Positions 13,304 through 62,181 of a DNA stretch of 64,000 nt are shown one piece after another (the stretch's first letter is position 1; each line of letters opens with the position of its first letter). The position numbers and the translations under genes were made by a program. The stretch is from NCBI GenBank assembly GCA_014896455.1, contig JADBKJ010000004.1, positions 1-64,000 on the forward strand. The letters are read 5' to 3'. The notes beneath the pieces are model-generated. The model ran no database searches. It had not been told where the DNA came from and saw only the letters and a program-made list of their open reading frames with translations. The DNA comes from Thermoanaerobacter sp. (GTDB lineage: Bacteria; Bacillota; Thermoanaerobacteria; Thermoanaerobacterales; Thermoanaerobacteraceae).

Positions 13304-13345
13304 CTTATTCATTTAATTGAAAATTGGAGTATAAATGAAATAAAA

Positions 13346-13387
13346 AAATATCTCCTTTGAATATTTTTTAATTTTGTCAACAAACTG
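13346..13387 (+). repeat. Solo end of the terminator-associated repeat
   Basis: This 42-bp piece matches the element end found at 21913-21955 and 51908-51947 (TATCTCCTTTGAATATTTTT, then TTTGTCAACAAACTG). It is followed one base later by a terminator stem-loop, the same arrangement as the full copies. The rest of the element is absent. Confidence 0.75.
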
Positions 13388-20609: not shown

Positions 20610-21674
20610 GTGAATAATTTTCTATTGAGATACGGTGATATAATAAAAAAAACACTGCTCATTGTTGCTGTCTTTATTATATTTTACTTAATTATATTTA
20701 AAATTATTCCTTTCTTGATGCCGTTTGTAGTGGCTTTGCTTCTCGCTGTGATAATCGATCCTGGCGTAAATTTTTTAGAGAAAAAATTAAGGGTACCGAG
20801 AGGCCTAGCATCCTTTATTTTACTTTTGATATTAATAGGCGTGATAGGATCACTTATTGCAATATCAATAACACAACTTACATACGAACTAAGTTCTCTT
20901 GCGGAAATAAGTACAAATTATGCAAATACTATTAATGACATAATTTTAAATCTTGTTGATAGGATAAGAATGTATTACGTAACATTACCCCCAAATATTA
21001 CATCTCTTATTGAAAGCAACATGCAATCGATTTTAAACTATATATCATTATTTGCAAAAAATCTTGCTACATGGCTTTTGAATTTTGCAACAAAATTGCC
21101 TAACTTTTTCTTTATGACTTTGATAACACTCGTTGCTACTTTTTTTATAAGCAAAGATAAACAGCTTATACTAGATTTTATAAAAAGACAGATTCCATCT
21201 CATTGGGCACAGCATGCAAAAAATATTCAGGTAGACCTTTTAAAGACATTTTTCGGATATCTCCGAGCAGTAGCAACAATAATGCTTATAACCTTTTTGG
21301 AAGTCTCCATAGGCCTTGCAATGATAGGTTTTGACTACCCATTTCTATTGGGTCTTCTTGTAACCATTGTAGATGCATTGCCCGTACTAGGTTCTGGTGC
21401 CGTCATGGTACCATGGGCGCTTTATAATATCATAATGAAAAACTACATGGTAGGGATATATCTTTTAATACTGTACGGCTTGGTGGTAGTTGTAAGACAG
21501 ATGATAGAGCCTAAGATTGTAGGTCAGAGTATAGGACTTCATCCTCTTGTTACGCTTTTATCTATGTTTATAGGTGCAAAACTTTTCGGTGCTTTAGGGC
21601 TTGTAATAGGGCCTGTATTTGTAGTAGTATTTAAAGCTCTTCAAAAAGCAGAAATTATTCCTCCTTGGAAATAA
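20610..21674 (+). CDS. ytvI: AI-2E family permease, YtvI-like
   Basis: A 354-residue protein with seven to eight membrane segments and the AI-2E/UPF0118 core. The C-terminal signature GLLVTIVDALPVLGSGAVMVP and the ending IGPVFVVVFKALQ fit the sporulation-associated YtvI branch. The transported substrate is unknown. The start is GTG at 20610, with AGGAGG 8 bases upstream. It converges with ilvB, and their shared terminator has been split by a repeat element. Confidence 0.87.
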   Translation: MNNFLLRYGDIIKKTLLIVAVFIIFYLIIFKIIPFLMPFVVALLLAVIIDPGVNFLEKKLRVPRGLASFILLLILIGVIGSLIAISITQLTYELSSLAEISTNYANTINDIILNLVDRIRMYYVTLPPNITSLIESNMQSILNYISLFAKNLATWLLNFATKLPNFFFMTLITLVATFFISKDKQLILDFIKRQIPSHWAQHAKNIQVDLLKTFFGYLRAVATIMLITFLEVSIGLAMIGFDYPFLLGLLVTIVDALPVLGSGAVMVPWALYNIIMKNYMVGIYLLILYGLVVVVRQMIEPKIVGQSIGLHPLVTLLSMFIGAKLFGALGLVIGPVFVVVFKALQKAEIIPPWK

Positions 21675-21678
21675 AAAT

Positions 21679-21699
21679 AAAGGGTTTGTAACCCTTTCT
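21679..21699. terminator. Left copy of the ytvI/ilvB terminator stem
   Basis: A palindromic stem-loop, AAAGGGTT...AACCCTTTCT, 21 bp long and identical to 21959-21979. It is the proximal half of a target duplication around the repeat element. It has lost the downstream T-tract that the right copy keeps. Confidence 0.85.
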
Positions 21700-21958
21700 C
21701 AGACTGTTGACAAACTTTCGTAAAGGAGATATTTTTGCGACTTGTTACAAAGCGGTACAAAACTTAGCAAGACCGAGGGTGGAGGCAGGGCCGAAGCCAT
21801 GGATGGCGAAGGCGGGCACCTGAGGCAAGGAGGCCGATTGTGCCCGGTACCCTGCCGGAGCCCGAAGGTCGAGCTTTAGTTTTGTCGCTTTGGAACATCG
21901 GAGCGACGATGCAAAATATCTCCTTTGAATATTTTTTAACCTTTGTCAACAAACTAAG
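21700..21958 (-). mobile_element. Terminator-associated repeat, copy 1
   Basis: A GC-rich element of about 259 bp in AT-rich surroundings. One end reads CAGACTGTTGACAAACTTTC and the other, read inward from the right, AGTTTGTTGACAAAGGTTAA; both run into AAAGGAGATATTTTTGC or AAAGGAGATATTTTGCATCG, so the ends form imperfect terminal inverted repeats of about 40 bp. The interior has several hairpins, such as GTCGCT...AGCGAC and a GGCAGGG/CCCTGCC pair. It encodes no convincing protein. The flanking terminator stem is duplicated (21 bp). Confidence 0.85.
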
Positions 21959-21984
21959 AAAGGGTTTGTAACCCTTTCTTTTTA
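21959..21984. terminator. Right copy of the ytvI/ilvB terminator
   Basis: The same 21-bp stem-loop as at 21679-21699, here followed by TTTTTAT on the plus strand. It ends directly at the ilvB stop codon. Before insertion it was presumably a single bidirectional terminator for the convergent genes. Confidence 0.85.
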
Positions 21985-23646
21985 TCCAATTGTATTTTCA
22001 ACAGTTCCCCCAGCGGGAATAAATGGAAGCACCATCTCATCTTTGTCTATAATACATTCTATCATAAAAGGTCTTTTTTCGCTATAGGCTTTTTTAAACG
22101 CTTTTTCAAATTCTTCTTTTGTTGTAACTCTTATTCCTTCTACTCCAAAGTCGTTTGCAAGCTTAGCAAAATTCAAATTTGCGTTCAAATCTGTGTGGGA
22201 AAATCTCTTGTCATACAAAAGATTTTGCCACTGTCTTACCATTCCTAAAGTTTGGTTGTTGAGTAGTACTGTTATAACCGGAATATTATACACAGCAGCT
22301 GTTTCTAAGGCATGTATATTCATTCTTAAACTTCCATCACCTGCAATGTTTACAACTCTTTTATCTGGCCTTCCTACTTGCGCTCCTATTGCAGCAGGAA
22401 GCCCAAAGCCCATTGTCCCTAATCCCCCTGATGTAACAAAGGTTCTAGGGTGTTTAAATTTATAAAACTGGGCAGCCCACATTTGATTTTGTCCCACTTC
22501 AGTGGCTATTATAAGGTCATCGTTCGAAATTTCTTGAATTTTTTCTACTATCCACTGAGGCCTCAAAACTTCATCGTTTTTATACTTTAATCCGTGCTTT
22601 TCTCTCAAGAAAGAAATTTCCTCTAACCATTCTTTTCTCTCAATGAATGGAAGTTTATTCGTTAAAAGTTTCAATACTTCTTTTACTTTGCCTATAACTG
22701 CTACCTCTACTTCTACATTTTTCCCTAATTCTGCAGGGTCAATATCAATATGGATTATTTTAGCATTTGGAGCAAGTCCTCCTGCTTTGCCAGCGACTCT
22801 GTCGCTAAATCTTGTCCCTATTGCTATCACAAGGTCTGACCTATATACAGCCAAATTTGCAAATCTACTTCCATGCATGCCTATAAGACCTAATGACAAA
22901 GGATGGTCTTCTGGAAAGCACCCTAATCCCATTAAAGAACTGGCAACAGGTATATTGGTTTTCTCTGCAAATTCTATAAGTTCCTCTGATGCTTCCCCCA
23001 AAATCACTCCTCCTCCTGCAAAGATTACAGGTTTTTTGCTTTGTAAAATAAGCTCTATAGCTTTGTCTAACTCTTTTTGTGAAACTATTCCCTTGCCATT
23101 GTTTTTTATATTAATACTATCTTCCTTTCCTTTAACATATTCTATATCGGCATTTTGCATATCTTTTGGAATATCAACTAACACAGGGCCAGGCCTTCCA
23201 CTTTTAGCTATTGCAAATGCCTGCCTTATTGTATCTGCTAATTTATCAGGAGATTTTACAATAAAGTTGTGTTTAGTTATAGGCATTGTAATTCCTGTTA
23301 TGTCAACCTCTTGAAAAGCGTCTTTTCCTATAAGATTTGTAGGAACCTGTCCTGTTATCGCCACCACAGGTACAGAATCCATATAAGCATTTGCTATGCC
23401 TGTCACAAGATTGGTAGACCCCGGACCAGAGGTAGCAAAACAAACTCCAACTCTTCCCGTAACTCTTGCGTAACCATCTGCCATATGGGCTGCCATTTGC
23501 TCGTGAGTAGCTAAAATATGCCTTATATCAGAGTCATAAAGAGCATCATAAATGGGAATAACTGCTCCTCCTGGTATGCCAAATATAGTATCAACGCCCA
23601 TCTCTTTTAAAACTTCTATAACTACTTGTGCTCCTTTTAACTTCAT
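21982..23646 (-). CDS. ilvB: Acetolactate synthase large subunit
   Basis: A 554-residue thiamine-diphosphate enzyme. It has [14 protein letters not shown] and the catalytic Glu in [14 protein letters not shown] at the N-terminus, and the ThDP-binding [15 protein letters not shown]...[12 protein letters not shown] region at about 430-475. It condenses two pyruvates, or pyruvate and 2-oxobutyrate, in the first committed step of branched-chain amino acid synthesis. It is the last gene of the operon; the ATG overlaps the ilvD stop by 4 bases. The small subunit IlvN is encoded at the far (5') end of the same operon. Confidence 0.97.
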
Positions 23647-37444: not shown

Positions 37445-38172
37445 AATTAGTCGTTGGCCACATGTATCCTGATTTATTAAACTTATATGGAGATATAGGA
37501 AATATTGTAGCTTTAAAAAAAAGATGTGAATGGAGAAAAATTGAAATAGAAATAAAGCCAATAACTTTAGATTACAATGAAGAATTTGCTGACGTAGACC
37601 TTCTATTTTTAGGAGGAGGGTCAGATAGAGAGCAAAAAATTGTAAGTGATGATTTAAAAAATAAAAAAGGTAAAAATTTAAAAACAGCTATTGAAGATGG
37701 TTTGACAGTATTAGCTATATGTGGAGGATATCAATTACTTGGAGAATACTATCAAACTCTGGCTGGTAGCAAATTAGAAGGTTTAGGAATTTTAAAAGCC
37801 TGGACAATAGCTGGTAATAGAAGAATGATAGGAAATATAGTTATAGACACAAATATAGCTGGTAAAAATTTTAAAATGGTAGGTTTTGAGAATCACTCAG
37901 GAAAAACTTTTTTGGAAAAAATGGAGCCTTTAGGTAAAGTAATAATTGGAAATGGAAATAATGGAGAAGATAAAACAGAAGGATGTATCTATAAAAATGT
38001 GTATGGAACATATCTCCACGGTCCAGTACTACCCAAAAATCCTGAATTTGCAGATATTTTAATTGAAACTGCTTTAAAGAGAAAATATGGAAAAGTAGAA
38101 TTAACTCCTTTGGATGACTCTTTAGAACAACAAGCTAAACAATCTTTGATAGAAAGATTTATAAAAAAATAG
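37441..38172 (+). CDS. gatD: Lipid II isoglutaminyl synthase, glutaminase subunit GatD
   Basis: A 243-residue class I (CobB/CobQ-like) glutamine amidotransferase with the nucleophile C94 in AICGGYQLLG and H193 in GTYLHGP. It supplies ammonia to MurT. It overlaps murT by 4 bases, and its stop codon lies within the terminator stem that follows. Confidence 0.94.
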   Translation: MKLVVGHMYPDLLNLYGDIGNIVALKKRCEWRKIEIEIKPITLDYNEEFADVDLLFLGGGSDREQKIVSDDLKNKKGKNLKTAIEDGLTVLAICGGYQLLGEYYQTLAGSKLEGLGILKAWTIAGNRRMIGNIVIDTNIAGKNFKMVGFENHSGKTFLEKMEPLGKVIIGNGNNGEDKTEGCIYKNVYGTYLHGPVLPKNPEFADILIETALKRKYGKVELTPLDDSLEQQAKQSLIERFIKK

Positions 38173-38189
38173 AGGATTACGGCCTCTAT
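38169..38189. terminator. Left copy of the gatD/GH31 terminator stem
   Basis: A 21-bp stem-loop, ATAGAGG...CCTCTAT, containing the gatD stop codon and identical to 38450-38470. It has no T-tract on the plus strand because the repeat element begins immediately after it. Confidence 0.85.
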
Positions 38190-38449
38190 CAGACTGTAGA
38201 CAAACTTTCGTTTTTGCATCGTCGCTCCGATGTTCCAAAGCGACAAAACTAAGCTCGACCTTCGGGCTCCGGCAGGGTACCGGGCACATTCGACATCCTT
38301 GTCTTAGTGCCCGCCTCCGCCATCCGTGGCTACGGCCCTGCCTCCACCCTTGGTCTCGCTAAGTTTTGTTGCCACTTTGTCACAAGTCGCACCGATTGCA
38401 AAATATCTCCTTTACGAAAGTTTGTCTACAGTCTGTTGTCAACAAACTG
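38190..38449 (+). mobile_element. Terminator-associated repeat, copy 2
   Basis: A 260-bp GC-rich element. The left end, CAGACTGTAGACAAACTTTC, is of the type usually found on the other side, joined to TTTTTGCATCGTCGCTCCG. The right end has CGAAAGTTTGTCTACAGTCT plus an extra TTGTCAACAAACTG, i.e. both kinds of terminus in tandem. It is probably a product of recombination between copies. A 21-bp terminator stem is duplicated at its borders. Confidence 0.85.
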
Positions 38450-38477
38450 ATAGAGGATTACGGCCTCTATTTTTTTA
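38450..38477. terminator. Right copy of the gatD/GH31 terminator
   Basis: The same 21-bp stem-loop as at 38169-38189, followed by TTTTTTT. It lies directly beside the stop of the minus-strand GH31 gene and would have served both convergent genes. Confidence 0.85.
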
Positions 38478-51747: not shown

Positions 51748-51947
51748 CCGGGAAACTTAGCGAGACAGAGAGAGGTTGGCGGAGCCGAAGCCTTGTGAGG
51801 CGGAGGCAGGCGCTAAGACAGGGATGTCGCCTGACGGGGTACACTGCCGGAGCCCGAAGGGGGAGCTTATGTTTTGTCGCTTTGGAACATCGGAGCGACG
51901 ATGCAAAATATCTCCTTTGAATATTTTTTAACTTTGTCAACAAATTG
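51748..51947 (-). mobile_element. Terminator-associated repeat, copy 3 (rearranged)
   Basis: About 200 bp match the other copies on the minus strand, ending at the right in TCTCCTTTGAATATTTTTTA and TTTGTCAACAAATTG. The left arm is different: at 51702-51752 CCCGG...CCGGG encloses ACTAAAC/GTTTAGT, unlike the usual AAAGGAGATATTTTGC end. No left copy of the flanking terminator is present, so one end has been replaced or deleted. The stretch 51609-51747 holds no gene I can support. Confidence 0.75.
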
Positions 51948-55192: not shown

Positions 55193-55455
55193 CAGTTTGT
55201 TAACAAAGTTAAAAAATACTCAAAGGAGATATTTTGCATCGTCACTCCGATGTTCCAAAGCGACAAAACATAAGATTCCCCTTCGGGTTCCGGCAGGGTA
55301 CCCCGTCAGGCGACCTCCTTGTCTTAGTGCCCGCCTCCGCCATCCGTGGCTACGGCCCTGCCTCCACCCTTGGTCTCGCTAAGTTTTGTTGCCGCTTTGT
55401 CACAAGTCGCACCGATTGCAAAATATCTCCTTTACGAAAGTTTGTTTACAGTCTG
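55193..55455 (+). mobile_element. Terminator-associated repeat, copy 4
   Basis: A 263-bp element with left end CAGTTTGTTAACAAAGTTAA and right end CGAAAGTTTGTTTACAGTCT. Both ends contain AAAGGAGATATTTTGCA or its complement, and the interior is GC-rich with the GTCGCT/AGCGAC-type hairpin (one change here). It is the cleanest copy, with both termini and both terminator duplicates. The open frames in it and in copies 3 and 5 begin alike because the DNA is repeated, not because of a protein. Confidence 0.88.
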
Positions 55456-61817: not shown

Positions 61818-62082
61818 CAGTTTGTTGACAAAGTTAAAAAATATTCAAAGGAGATATTTTGCATCGTCGCTCCGATGTTCCAAAGCGACAAAACTAAAGC
61901 TCGACCTTCGGGCTCCGGCAGGGTACCGGGCACAATCGGCCTCCTTGCCTCAGGTGCCCGCCTTCGCCATCCATGGCTTCGGCCCTGCCTCCACCCTCAG
62001 TCTCGCTAAGTTTTGTTACCGCTTTGTAACAAGTCGCACCGATTGCAAAATATCTCCTTTGCGAAAGTTTGTCTACAGTCTG
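61818..62082 (+). mobile_element. Terminator-associated repeat, copy 5
   Basis: A 265-bp element with ends CAGTTTGTTGACAAAGTTAA and CGAAAGTTTGTCTACAGTCT. The sequence is very close to copy 1 in the opposite orientation. It is followed by a foreign terminator and a second partial element before the right terminator copy. Confidence 0.88.
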
Positions 62083-62131
62083 AGAGAGTATACGAAATAC
62101 TCTCTTTTTCTCTTTCTATCTTTGCATATAT
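62083..62131. other. Extra terminator between repeat copy 5 and a partial copy
   Basis: AGAGAGTAT-ACGAA-ATACTCTCT followed by TTTTTC is a complete terminator with no gene of its own. It is unlike either flank, so it may have been carried in by recombination from another copy's locus. Confidence 0.65.
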
Positions 62132-62181
62132 GTCGCACCGATTGCAAAATATCTCCTTTACGAAAGTTTGTCTACAGTCTG
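62132..62181 (+). repeat. Partial repeat end next to copy 5
   Basis: Fifty bases repeat the right end of the element (GTCGCACCGATTGCAAAATA, then CGAAAGTTTGTCTACAGTCT). They match 62033-62082 with one or two changes. Confidence 0.85.

Follow-up and report, generated by a model that had tools for sequence, protein, structure and literature searches.

Elements of one IS1182 group in Thermoanaerobacter are bordered on both sides by a complete copy of a hairpin that is single at orthologous empty sites, and the element between the convergent genes ytvI and ilvB described here is one of them. The ends shared by small and large elements, the transposase family, the empty sites, the duplication of the whole hairpin centred on its dyad, the variable length of this duplication and its restriction to one group among those examined are all observed. 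They are best explained, and very probably correctly so, by a MITE that is mobilised by a palindrome-targeting transposase of the IS1182 family, with attack at the 5' feet of the hairpin followed by gap repair. We infer, in addition, that the target is an extruded cruciform.

The usual view of DDE transposons is that their target duplications are short and fixed in length. In the elements described here, this length varies between 17 and 40 bp in step with a DNA structure, and this holds for a whole element group and for 34 different target sequences in one genus alone. Insertions of this type offer a natural assay for cruciforms in vivo and show how terminators can serve an element as safe harbours. 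They also separate a duplicating group from the hairpin-deleting IS1272 within one family, and they place an orphan RNA family, TwoAYGGAY, on mobile elements.

The ytvI-ilvB locus

The window, that is, the whole stretch of 64,000 nucleotides that was analysed, belongs to a draft genome (G000), and its relevant features are collected in Table 1. At the ytvI/ilvB locus, an element of 257 bp stands between two copies of a terminator hairpin. When trimmed to the element ends, the two copies (left, ATAAAGGGTTTGTAACCCTTTCT; right, AGAAAGGGTTTGTAACCCTTTCT) are 23 bp long each and identical at 22 of 23 positions; the untrimmed direct repeat covers 21676-21699 and 21956-21979, with a start-to-start spacing of 280. 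A preliminary description of this locus, made from the sequence, had reported an element of about 259 bp between copies of a 21-bp stem-loop: the element and the repeat are real, and the sizes required correction to 257 bp and to 23 bp with one mismatch. The element ends had been read correctly (CAGACTGT on the left and AGTTTGTT on the right, on the other strand), with the outermost right base being different in the window copy. The same description assigned a T-tract to the right copy only. This is valid for the + strand, where the right copy is followed by CCCTTTCTTTTTATCC (read from the sequence and absent from the list of the terminator consensus scan), but on the - strand it is the left copy that is followed by a T-rich tail, and this one was picked up by the scan. 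The terminator between ytvI and ilvB looks bidirectional.

The element is GC-rich in the middle and contains a subterminal inverted repeat inside the terminal one. No open reading frame of at least 80 aa is present within 21700-21956 in the ORF list. The segment from 21676 to 21990, which includes the hairpin copies, gives a predicted fold that is far more stable than those of shuffled sequences on both strands (z -9.6).

Table 1. Features of the window related to the element and its insertion site
Feature	Position	Strand	Evidence
Right-end remnant	13345..13387	+	Element search
ytvI, sporulation integral membrane protein, upstream convergent gene	20610..21674	+	ORF; TIGR02872, 398 bits (cutoff 198)
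Left copy of duplicated terminator hairpin (target-site duplication, 23 bp)	21677..21699	.	Direct repeat; single at orthologous empty site G003/L088; terminator-like on - strand
MITE, 257 bp, of IS1182-family element (putative assignment)	21700..21956	+	Copies in own genome; ends are those of IS copies L060-L072
Left terminal inverted repeat CAGACTGTTGACAAA	21700..21714	+	Identical to IS left end
Subterminal inverted repeat AAAGGAGATATTTT, left arm	21722..21735	+	Repeat search
GC-rich core with putative structure, related by sequence to TwoAYGGAY RNA (RF01731)	21741..21899	+	28.1 bits; alignment; paired changes
Subterminal inverted repeat, right arm	21913..21926	-	Repeat search
Right terminal inverted repeat, CAGTTTGTTGACAAA type, last base changed here	21942..21956	-	Sequence; IS right end
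Right copy of duplicated terminator hairpin, then T-rich stretch	21957..21979	.	Direct repeat; sequence
ilvB, acetolactate synthase large subunit, convergent	21982..23646	-	TIGR00118, 785 bits (cutoff 538)
Second copy, element 38190-38449, flanked by a duplicated 21-bp hairpin	38169..38470	-	Element search; flanks by eye
Diverged remnant of a copy	51753..51944	+	Element search
Third copy, flanked by a different hairpin whose two copies have diverged slightly	55193..55455	-	Element search; flanks by eye
Fourth copy; true flanks are a duplicated hairpin	61818..62181	-	Element search; clean orthologous copy L034 in G009

Copies in the draft genome and choice of genomes

Element matches were found in 16 of 41 genomes. 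These include all nine genomes of the same genus, among which G003 has a diverged form only. The draft genome G000 contains at least 40 near-full places (all 40 of those scored, out of 123 candidates). Within the window, the copy at 38190-38449 combines a left end of one type with a body in inverted orientation and a partial second end; it is a hybrid or rearranged copy that retains the duplicated hairpins. The right part of the fourth window copy, from about 62083, looks like an assembly insert.

This last feature recurs in the draft genome. At 19 of the 30 fetched G000 loci, the right-side hairpin stretch (GAGAGTATTTCGTATACTCTC...) stems from one locus, and such a pasted stretch is absent from the loci of single-contig genomes. 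Faulty gap filling is the probable cause. The affected loci are L002-L011, L013, L015, L017-L021, L024 and L025 (window ~62083-62181); the true source may be one or two of them, possibly L008 and L009. Note that coordinates near these repeats in G000 should not be trusted. Because of these 19 loci, the main analysis was carried out on the single-contig genomes G001, G006, G008 and G009, and the affected loci were kept out of the argument; the exceptions, made in the comparison of IS and MITE sites, are the left flanks of L002 and L012 and the clean copy L023. One-sided variable extensions in the draft had also suggested a retroelement or a group II intron. This candidate was rejected: the extensions lie on the right with respect to the contig whichever way the element is oriented, their sequence is that of one locus, and the single-contig loci are free of them, so they were read as gap-filling errors.

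The autonomous partner

A search of G001, G006, G008 and G009 with the end pattern identified pairs of ends about 1560 bp apart, which correspond to at least 13 IS copies (L060-L072). The copies are 1560-1568 bp long and carry the 15-bp ends of the window element, and within the limits of the element, each of the 13 has an open frame of 480 codons or more. The transposase P0001, taken from L062, scores 489.6 bits on the IS1182 model NF033551 (cutoff 270; residues 7-442) and also matches PF13751 (118 bits) and PF01609 (68 bits), a DDE-type transposase domain; candidate motifs starting at residues 144, 271 and 400 are presumably the DDE motifs. IS1202 was long placed in the ISNCY group, and it was to the IS1202 group that the element had at first been tentatively assigned. 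That identity was rejected on the transposase profile, which is IS1182 by a wide margin, the sole ISNCY-type match reaching 72 bits against a cutoff of 325.

MITEs of 98, 130, 191, ~262 and ~331 bp have 15-22 bp of their ends in common with the IS. In agreement with the definition of a MITE, they are short, lack a transposase, carry the terminal inverted repeats of an autonomous element and occur in many copies. Their target behaviour is also like that of the IS, in that duplications of at least 15 bp were found at 11 of the 13 IS copies (19-32 bp) and at 36 of the 61 MITE copies (17-40 bp). From this, the window element appears to be a MITE mobilised in trans by an IS1182-family IS of Thermoanaerobacter, an assignment that rests on the ends and the like target behaviour because the similarity between MITE and IS is confined to about 15-22 bp of the ends. 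The MITE reading in the preliminary description thus gains support from the ends, the transposase-bearing partner, the empty sites and dozens of different targets. As for the IS with the same ends that it proposed to look for, such elements exist in other Thermoanaerobacter genomes, and no intact IS was found among the five matches in the draft genome of the window itself. One G000 match, on C11, was considered as IS sequence and rejected; because the P0001 frame runs past the IS end, this match was read instead as flanking DNA of an orthologous hairpin site.

Three minor observations concern the structure of these elements. In L062 (2067-2129, G008), no stop codon closes the transposase frame before the right end of the IS, and the frame terminates in the flank, the last 20 of the 511 aa of P0001 being external; the C-terminus should therefore differ with the insertion site. 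L075 and L077 (G008) represent a 331-332-bp MITE variant whose core is enlarged at one place by an additional palindromic insert of ~70 bp (CCCGGCACTCAAGTAAG...CTTACTTGAGTGCCGGG). L138 (G006) is a 191-bp element that has the same ends and an interior unlike those of other MITEs.

Target-site duplication

A pair of ends was identified at 74 of the 80 fetched loci, and none at the other six. Direct repeats of at least 15 bp with at most 10% mismatches were found at 47 of the 74 copies with both ends; these repeats are 17-40 bp long, and 37 of them are exact. As for the remaining 27 copies, 21 of the 25 testable ones (L126 and L128 were left out) have flanks that are alike above the 95% level of swapped pairs. 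In the flank comparison, no clear duplicated hairpin was recognised at the IS copies L068 and L071 and the MITE copies L098 and L153.

The 37 exact sites comprise 34 different target sequences, with three pairs in which two genomes share a site or have similar sites. For each of them, the empty site was rebuilt and the best palindrome was sought with a free centre. The dyad of this palindrome coincides with the centre of the repeat at 36 of the 37 sites and is half a base off at the other one. The median palindrome score is 15, versus 6 in random segments of the window (95% level 10, highest 24), and the score exceeds this control level of 10 at 33 sites and is not higher at four. The cut lies 1-3 bp outside the outermost G:C pair at 29 of the 37 sites, no common sequence was found at the cuts beyond A/T-richness, and a T-rich tail is present on one or the other side at 28 sites. 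The length of the duplication correlates with that of the best detected palindrome with r 0.62; this correlation is moderate, weaker than hoped, because the cuts are often inside the A/T-rich outer stem.

The preliminary description had noted that the flanking terminator differs at other loci and is again present on both sides, which is confirmed in complete genomes. Its proposal of a target-site duplication made by a mobile element that chooses terminator hairpins agrees with the empty sites and with the dozens of different targets. The set duplication length of 24-29 bp that it considered was abandoned, the length following the hairpin over the range of 17-40 bp instead.

Empty sites and repeatedly hit hairpins

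Alignment with relatives lacking the insert, which the preliminary description recommended, revealed single hairpins at both sites at which clean comparisons are described here. In G003 (L088), ytvI is joined to the ilvB side by one hairpin without an insert; in the other eight genomes, the region downstream of ytvI consists in six of different DNA with a single hairpin of another sequence, and one match lies at a contig end. At the L065 site, where G008 has an IS with a 32-bp repeat, one hairpin and no insert are found in seven of the nine other genomes. No clean empty site was found for L075, which has the 40-bp duplication: G002 and G006 diverge just past the flank or hold an IS end.

The L065 terminator has been hit separately in three genomes. 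In addition to the IS in G008, it carries a MITE with 30-31-bp repeats in G000 and a MITE with 22-bp repeats in G005 (both by eye). The three insertions are concentric on the same dyad, and their duplications of 32, 30-31 and 22 bp are nested. In total, three orthologous hairpins, including that of L065, carry an IS in G008 where G000 has a MITE, and at further hairpins the type or orientation of the element varies from genome to genome.

Distribution of the duplicating group

In a search of 119 genomes of the phylum, IS1182 transposases were found in 22 genomes at an E-value of 1e-60 or better, and in 19 of them above the family cutoff. Elements with the same type of ends again have whole-hairpin duplications, namely 10 of the 11 fetched copies in G073 (the remaining copy has no end pair), all three copies of this type in G057 and both copies in G041. 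Among 49 loci, other subgroups included, 18 have this type of ends together with an exact repeat of at least 8 bp, and these repeats are 17-35 bp long; the 18 include two metagenome loci and one E. faecium plasmid. Outside the genus, 17 of 18 exact repeats are centred, and one is off by half a base. Hairpin duplication was also recognised by eye in a Sutcliffiella plasmid, a Providencia rettgeri plasmid and two streptococcal phage records, and in an imperfect form in L166. Matches were present in 2016 plasmid records, of which seven were examined, and in 23 phage records, of which two were examined. IS1182 elements with other ends, where these could be delimited, have short or no repeats and no hairpin duplication.

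In a tree of 33 transposases, 17 sequences of this kind are set apart by one branch (SH-aLRT 99); duplication is shown for 14 of them and was seen on one side for two, and the last one is ISEfa7. The tree was calculated with a quick method, is rooted at the midpoint and contains long branches (L227, L250, L267 and L268); L220, L254 and L258 were excluded, and L164, L166, L169 and L253, which have no usable frame, are outside it. Hairpin duplication thus marks one IS1182 group in Clostridia, Bacilli, streptococcal phages and Providencia, and the other subgroups examined are without it. ISEfa7 of Enterococcus faecium resembles this group in its CAGACTGTAGACAAAG ends and belongs inside it by transposase sequence, but it differs in having no duplication in either of the two plasmid copies examined; the unlike sequences on the two sides of these copies, compared by eye, suggest rearrangement. 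In L223 (G104), the hairpin copies around the IS differ by an inversion of the loop in the right copy, as if the arms had recombined.

Relation to known IS1182 elements

According to the available text of two papers, IS1272 and TnSha1 of Staphylococcus target hairpins, confirmed terminators among them, without a sequence consensus (PMC5678879, PMC4923244). In the same texts, IS1272 deletes or replaces its target hairpin and makes no duplication (Wan et al. 2017, PMC5678879), and TnSha1 is found in hairpins, terminators included, with partial deletion (Furi et al. 2016, PMC4923244). These elements and ours are alike in belonging to the same broad IS1182 family and in using hairpin targets; as far as these texts go, they differ in that the complete hairpin is duplicated here whereas it is deleted or replaced there. 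The Thermoanaerobacter elements did not follow the stem-loop replacement of IS1272, as judged from their duplications and empty sites. The IS1272 transposase is distant from that of the IS partner (27% over 42% of the length in a database match). It is not contained in the tree, in which an E. faecium element chosen for IS1272-like scores (L267) lies outside the duplicating group on a long branch. In the cruciform model of Wan et al. 2017, pathway b (PMC5678879, Fig. 13) already includes attack at the 5' feet with duplication of the whole stem-loop. It is drawn there as a possibility for IS1272, with no example in the text seen, whereas it corresponds here to the usual outcome for an element group.

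The 2025 paper on the megatransposon TnCO-1 of T. kivui describes, in general terms, IS1182-related transposases as acting with or without target duplication or deletion and as possibly recognising DNA structure, and its main text, as available, contains no mention of hairpin, stem-loop, target site or direct repeat and reports no hairpin duplication (PMC12056078). The IS1182-like element of TnCO-1 is of the same family and from the same genus as the IS described here, and it is perhaps the same copy as L070 in G006. This copy (L070/L286, 1841581-1843146) has 23-bp hairpin repeats with one mismatch and is located about 1.6 kb from the published start of TnCO-1. We make no claim about TnCO-1 because of this difference of 1.6 kb between the two starts. 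At the far end (published 1,934,113), no element end with three or fewer mismatches was found in 1932000-1937500 of G006, and weak matches with three mismatches are present in the vicinity of two further published borders.

In the available text of the open-licence literature searched, no observation of whole-hairpin duplication by IS1182 elements was found (PMC5678879, PMC12056078, PMC4923244, PMC3281130, PMC9208149, PMC3196728, PMC10969869, PMC11701678 and PMC2864571). As judged from these texts, the choice of hairpins by IS1182 elements is known, and whole-hairpin duplication as the rule for a group is apparently unreported. ISfinder reportedly lists duplications of up to ~60 bp for the IS1182 family, which would lower the novelty.

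Mechanism and alternative explanations

In the mechanism that we propose, the transposase of this IS1182 group would pick DNA palindromes, many of which are intrinsic terminators. Each of the two 3' ends of the element would be joined to one 5' foot of the hairpin, on opposite strands, and gap repair would then copy everything between the cuts, leaving a complete hairpin on both sides. If the target is an extruded cruciform, its four-way junction would bring both cut sites together whatever the length of the arms. Symmetric cuts, a duplication length that follows the hairpin and independence from sequence would result, and branch migration of the cruciform would yield nested duplications at one hairpin. 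Whether a group of DDE transposases, distributed in Firmicutes and on at least one gammaproteobacterial plasmid, reads DNA shape in this sense, by acting on the four-way junction with arm extrusion setting the duplication length, is in our estimate evenly balanced. If it does, cruciform extrusion in living cells is recorded naturally by these insertions, and the element can enter terminators without destroying them. After insertion, the left hairpin copy would serve leftward transcripts and the right copy rightward ones, and both transcripts would cross the structured MITE. A hairpin followed by a T-rich tail remains on each side, serving one direction apiece, so that both convergent genes would still be terminated and the insertion would be mild for the host.

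The palindrome might instead be recognised as a duplex, with two subunits that bind the half-sites, slide or flex, and cut symmetrically in the absence of any cruciform. Any dyad-binding dimer would give symmetric cuts, and the position of the cuts, within 1-3 bp beyond the outermost G:C pair at most of the exact sites (29/37), is in favour of such binding. However, the cuts share no sequence beyond A/T-richness, and their spacing, which ranges over 17-40 bp and over 22-32 bp at one and the same hairpin, is one that a rigid dimer cannot span, so this explanation is possible but doubtful. Still less probable is a target consisting of a single-stranded hairpin at a replication fork or a transcription bubble, with the second strand joined later: although terminator hairpins fold readily in single strands and known single-strand transposons use replication forks, such a process predicts simple insertion or deletion and not the symmetric duplication of a whole palindrome.

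The other explanations deny that the hairpin is a duplicated target or that the element is a DNA transposon. That the repeats and hairpins are assembly artefacts copied by gap filling is conceivable given the stretch pasted at 19 of 30 fetched loci of G000, but the pattern is clear in the single-contig genomes G001, G006, G008 and G009, and the window copy has its own hairpin and not the pasted one, which leaves this explanation very improbable. Almost all flanks are hairpins, as would also be expected if the hairpin belonged to the element and were carried along; with 34 different target sequences at 37 exact sites, and with flanks that match the single hairpin at the orthologous empty sites examined, this idea is refuted and retains hardly any credibility. 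Equally negligible is retrotransposition of a structured RNA by target-primed reverse transcription. The RNA-like core and the long duplications would suit it, but the inverted ends are precise on both sides and shared with an IS that bears a DDE transposase, and the 74 copies with both ends show no variable truncation of an end (6 of the 80 loci being without an end pair). We therefore retain the palindrome-targeting transposase with gap repair as the explanation of the duplicated hairpins.

The MITE core and TwoAYGGAY RNA

By its sequence, the core of the MITE is related to the TwoAYGGAY RNA (RF01731), with scores below the gathering score of 43 in Thermoanaerobacter: the window copy reaches 28.1 bits, all Rfam matches to this stretch being weak, and the best core copies of the genus reach about 40 bits. 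The likeness to this family thus consists in a core that aligns with it, at 40 bits in some copies, and the difference in scores that stay under the threshold. Within the 41 genomes, the gathering score is exceeded only in G020, G022 and G039; G020, of the same order, has 32 matches, 20 of which are above it. No match was found in 14 well-known control genomes. In the available text of a 2010 survey, TwoAYGGAY was rated as a probable RNA that is probably neither cis-regulatory nor a riboswitch (PMC2864571).

Paired double changes are kept at 8 of 45 predicted pairs within 27 MITE copies and at 5 of 11 pairs across 42 sequences of several lineages, both being plain counts; the alignments contain 27 of the 33 listed MITE-copy cores and, for the wide set, 42 of the 55 listed cores. 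These changes support a predicted structure in the core. RNA of the TwoAYGGAY type is apparently carried by small elements of at least two kinds, its role as an RNA being putative. At the G020 loci L191, L195 and L199 (of L190-L206, G020/G022), it is located, as seen by eye, in another interspersed element with target repeats of about 10 bp. In genus g2 (L040-L044 and L209), a TwoAYGGAY-like RNA occurs with one match per genome, and several of these matches are bounded by AAGACAATTTTGA/TCAAAATTGTCTT; between L040 and L041, which have like surroundings, the RNA is seemingly in opposite orientation.
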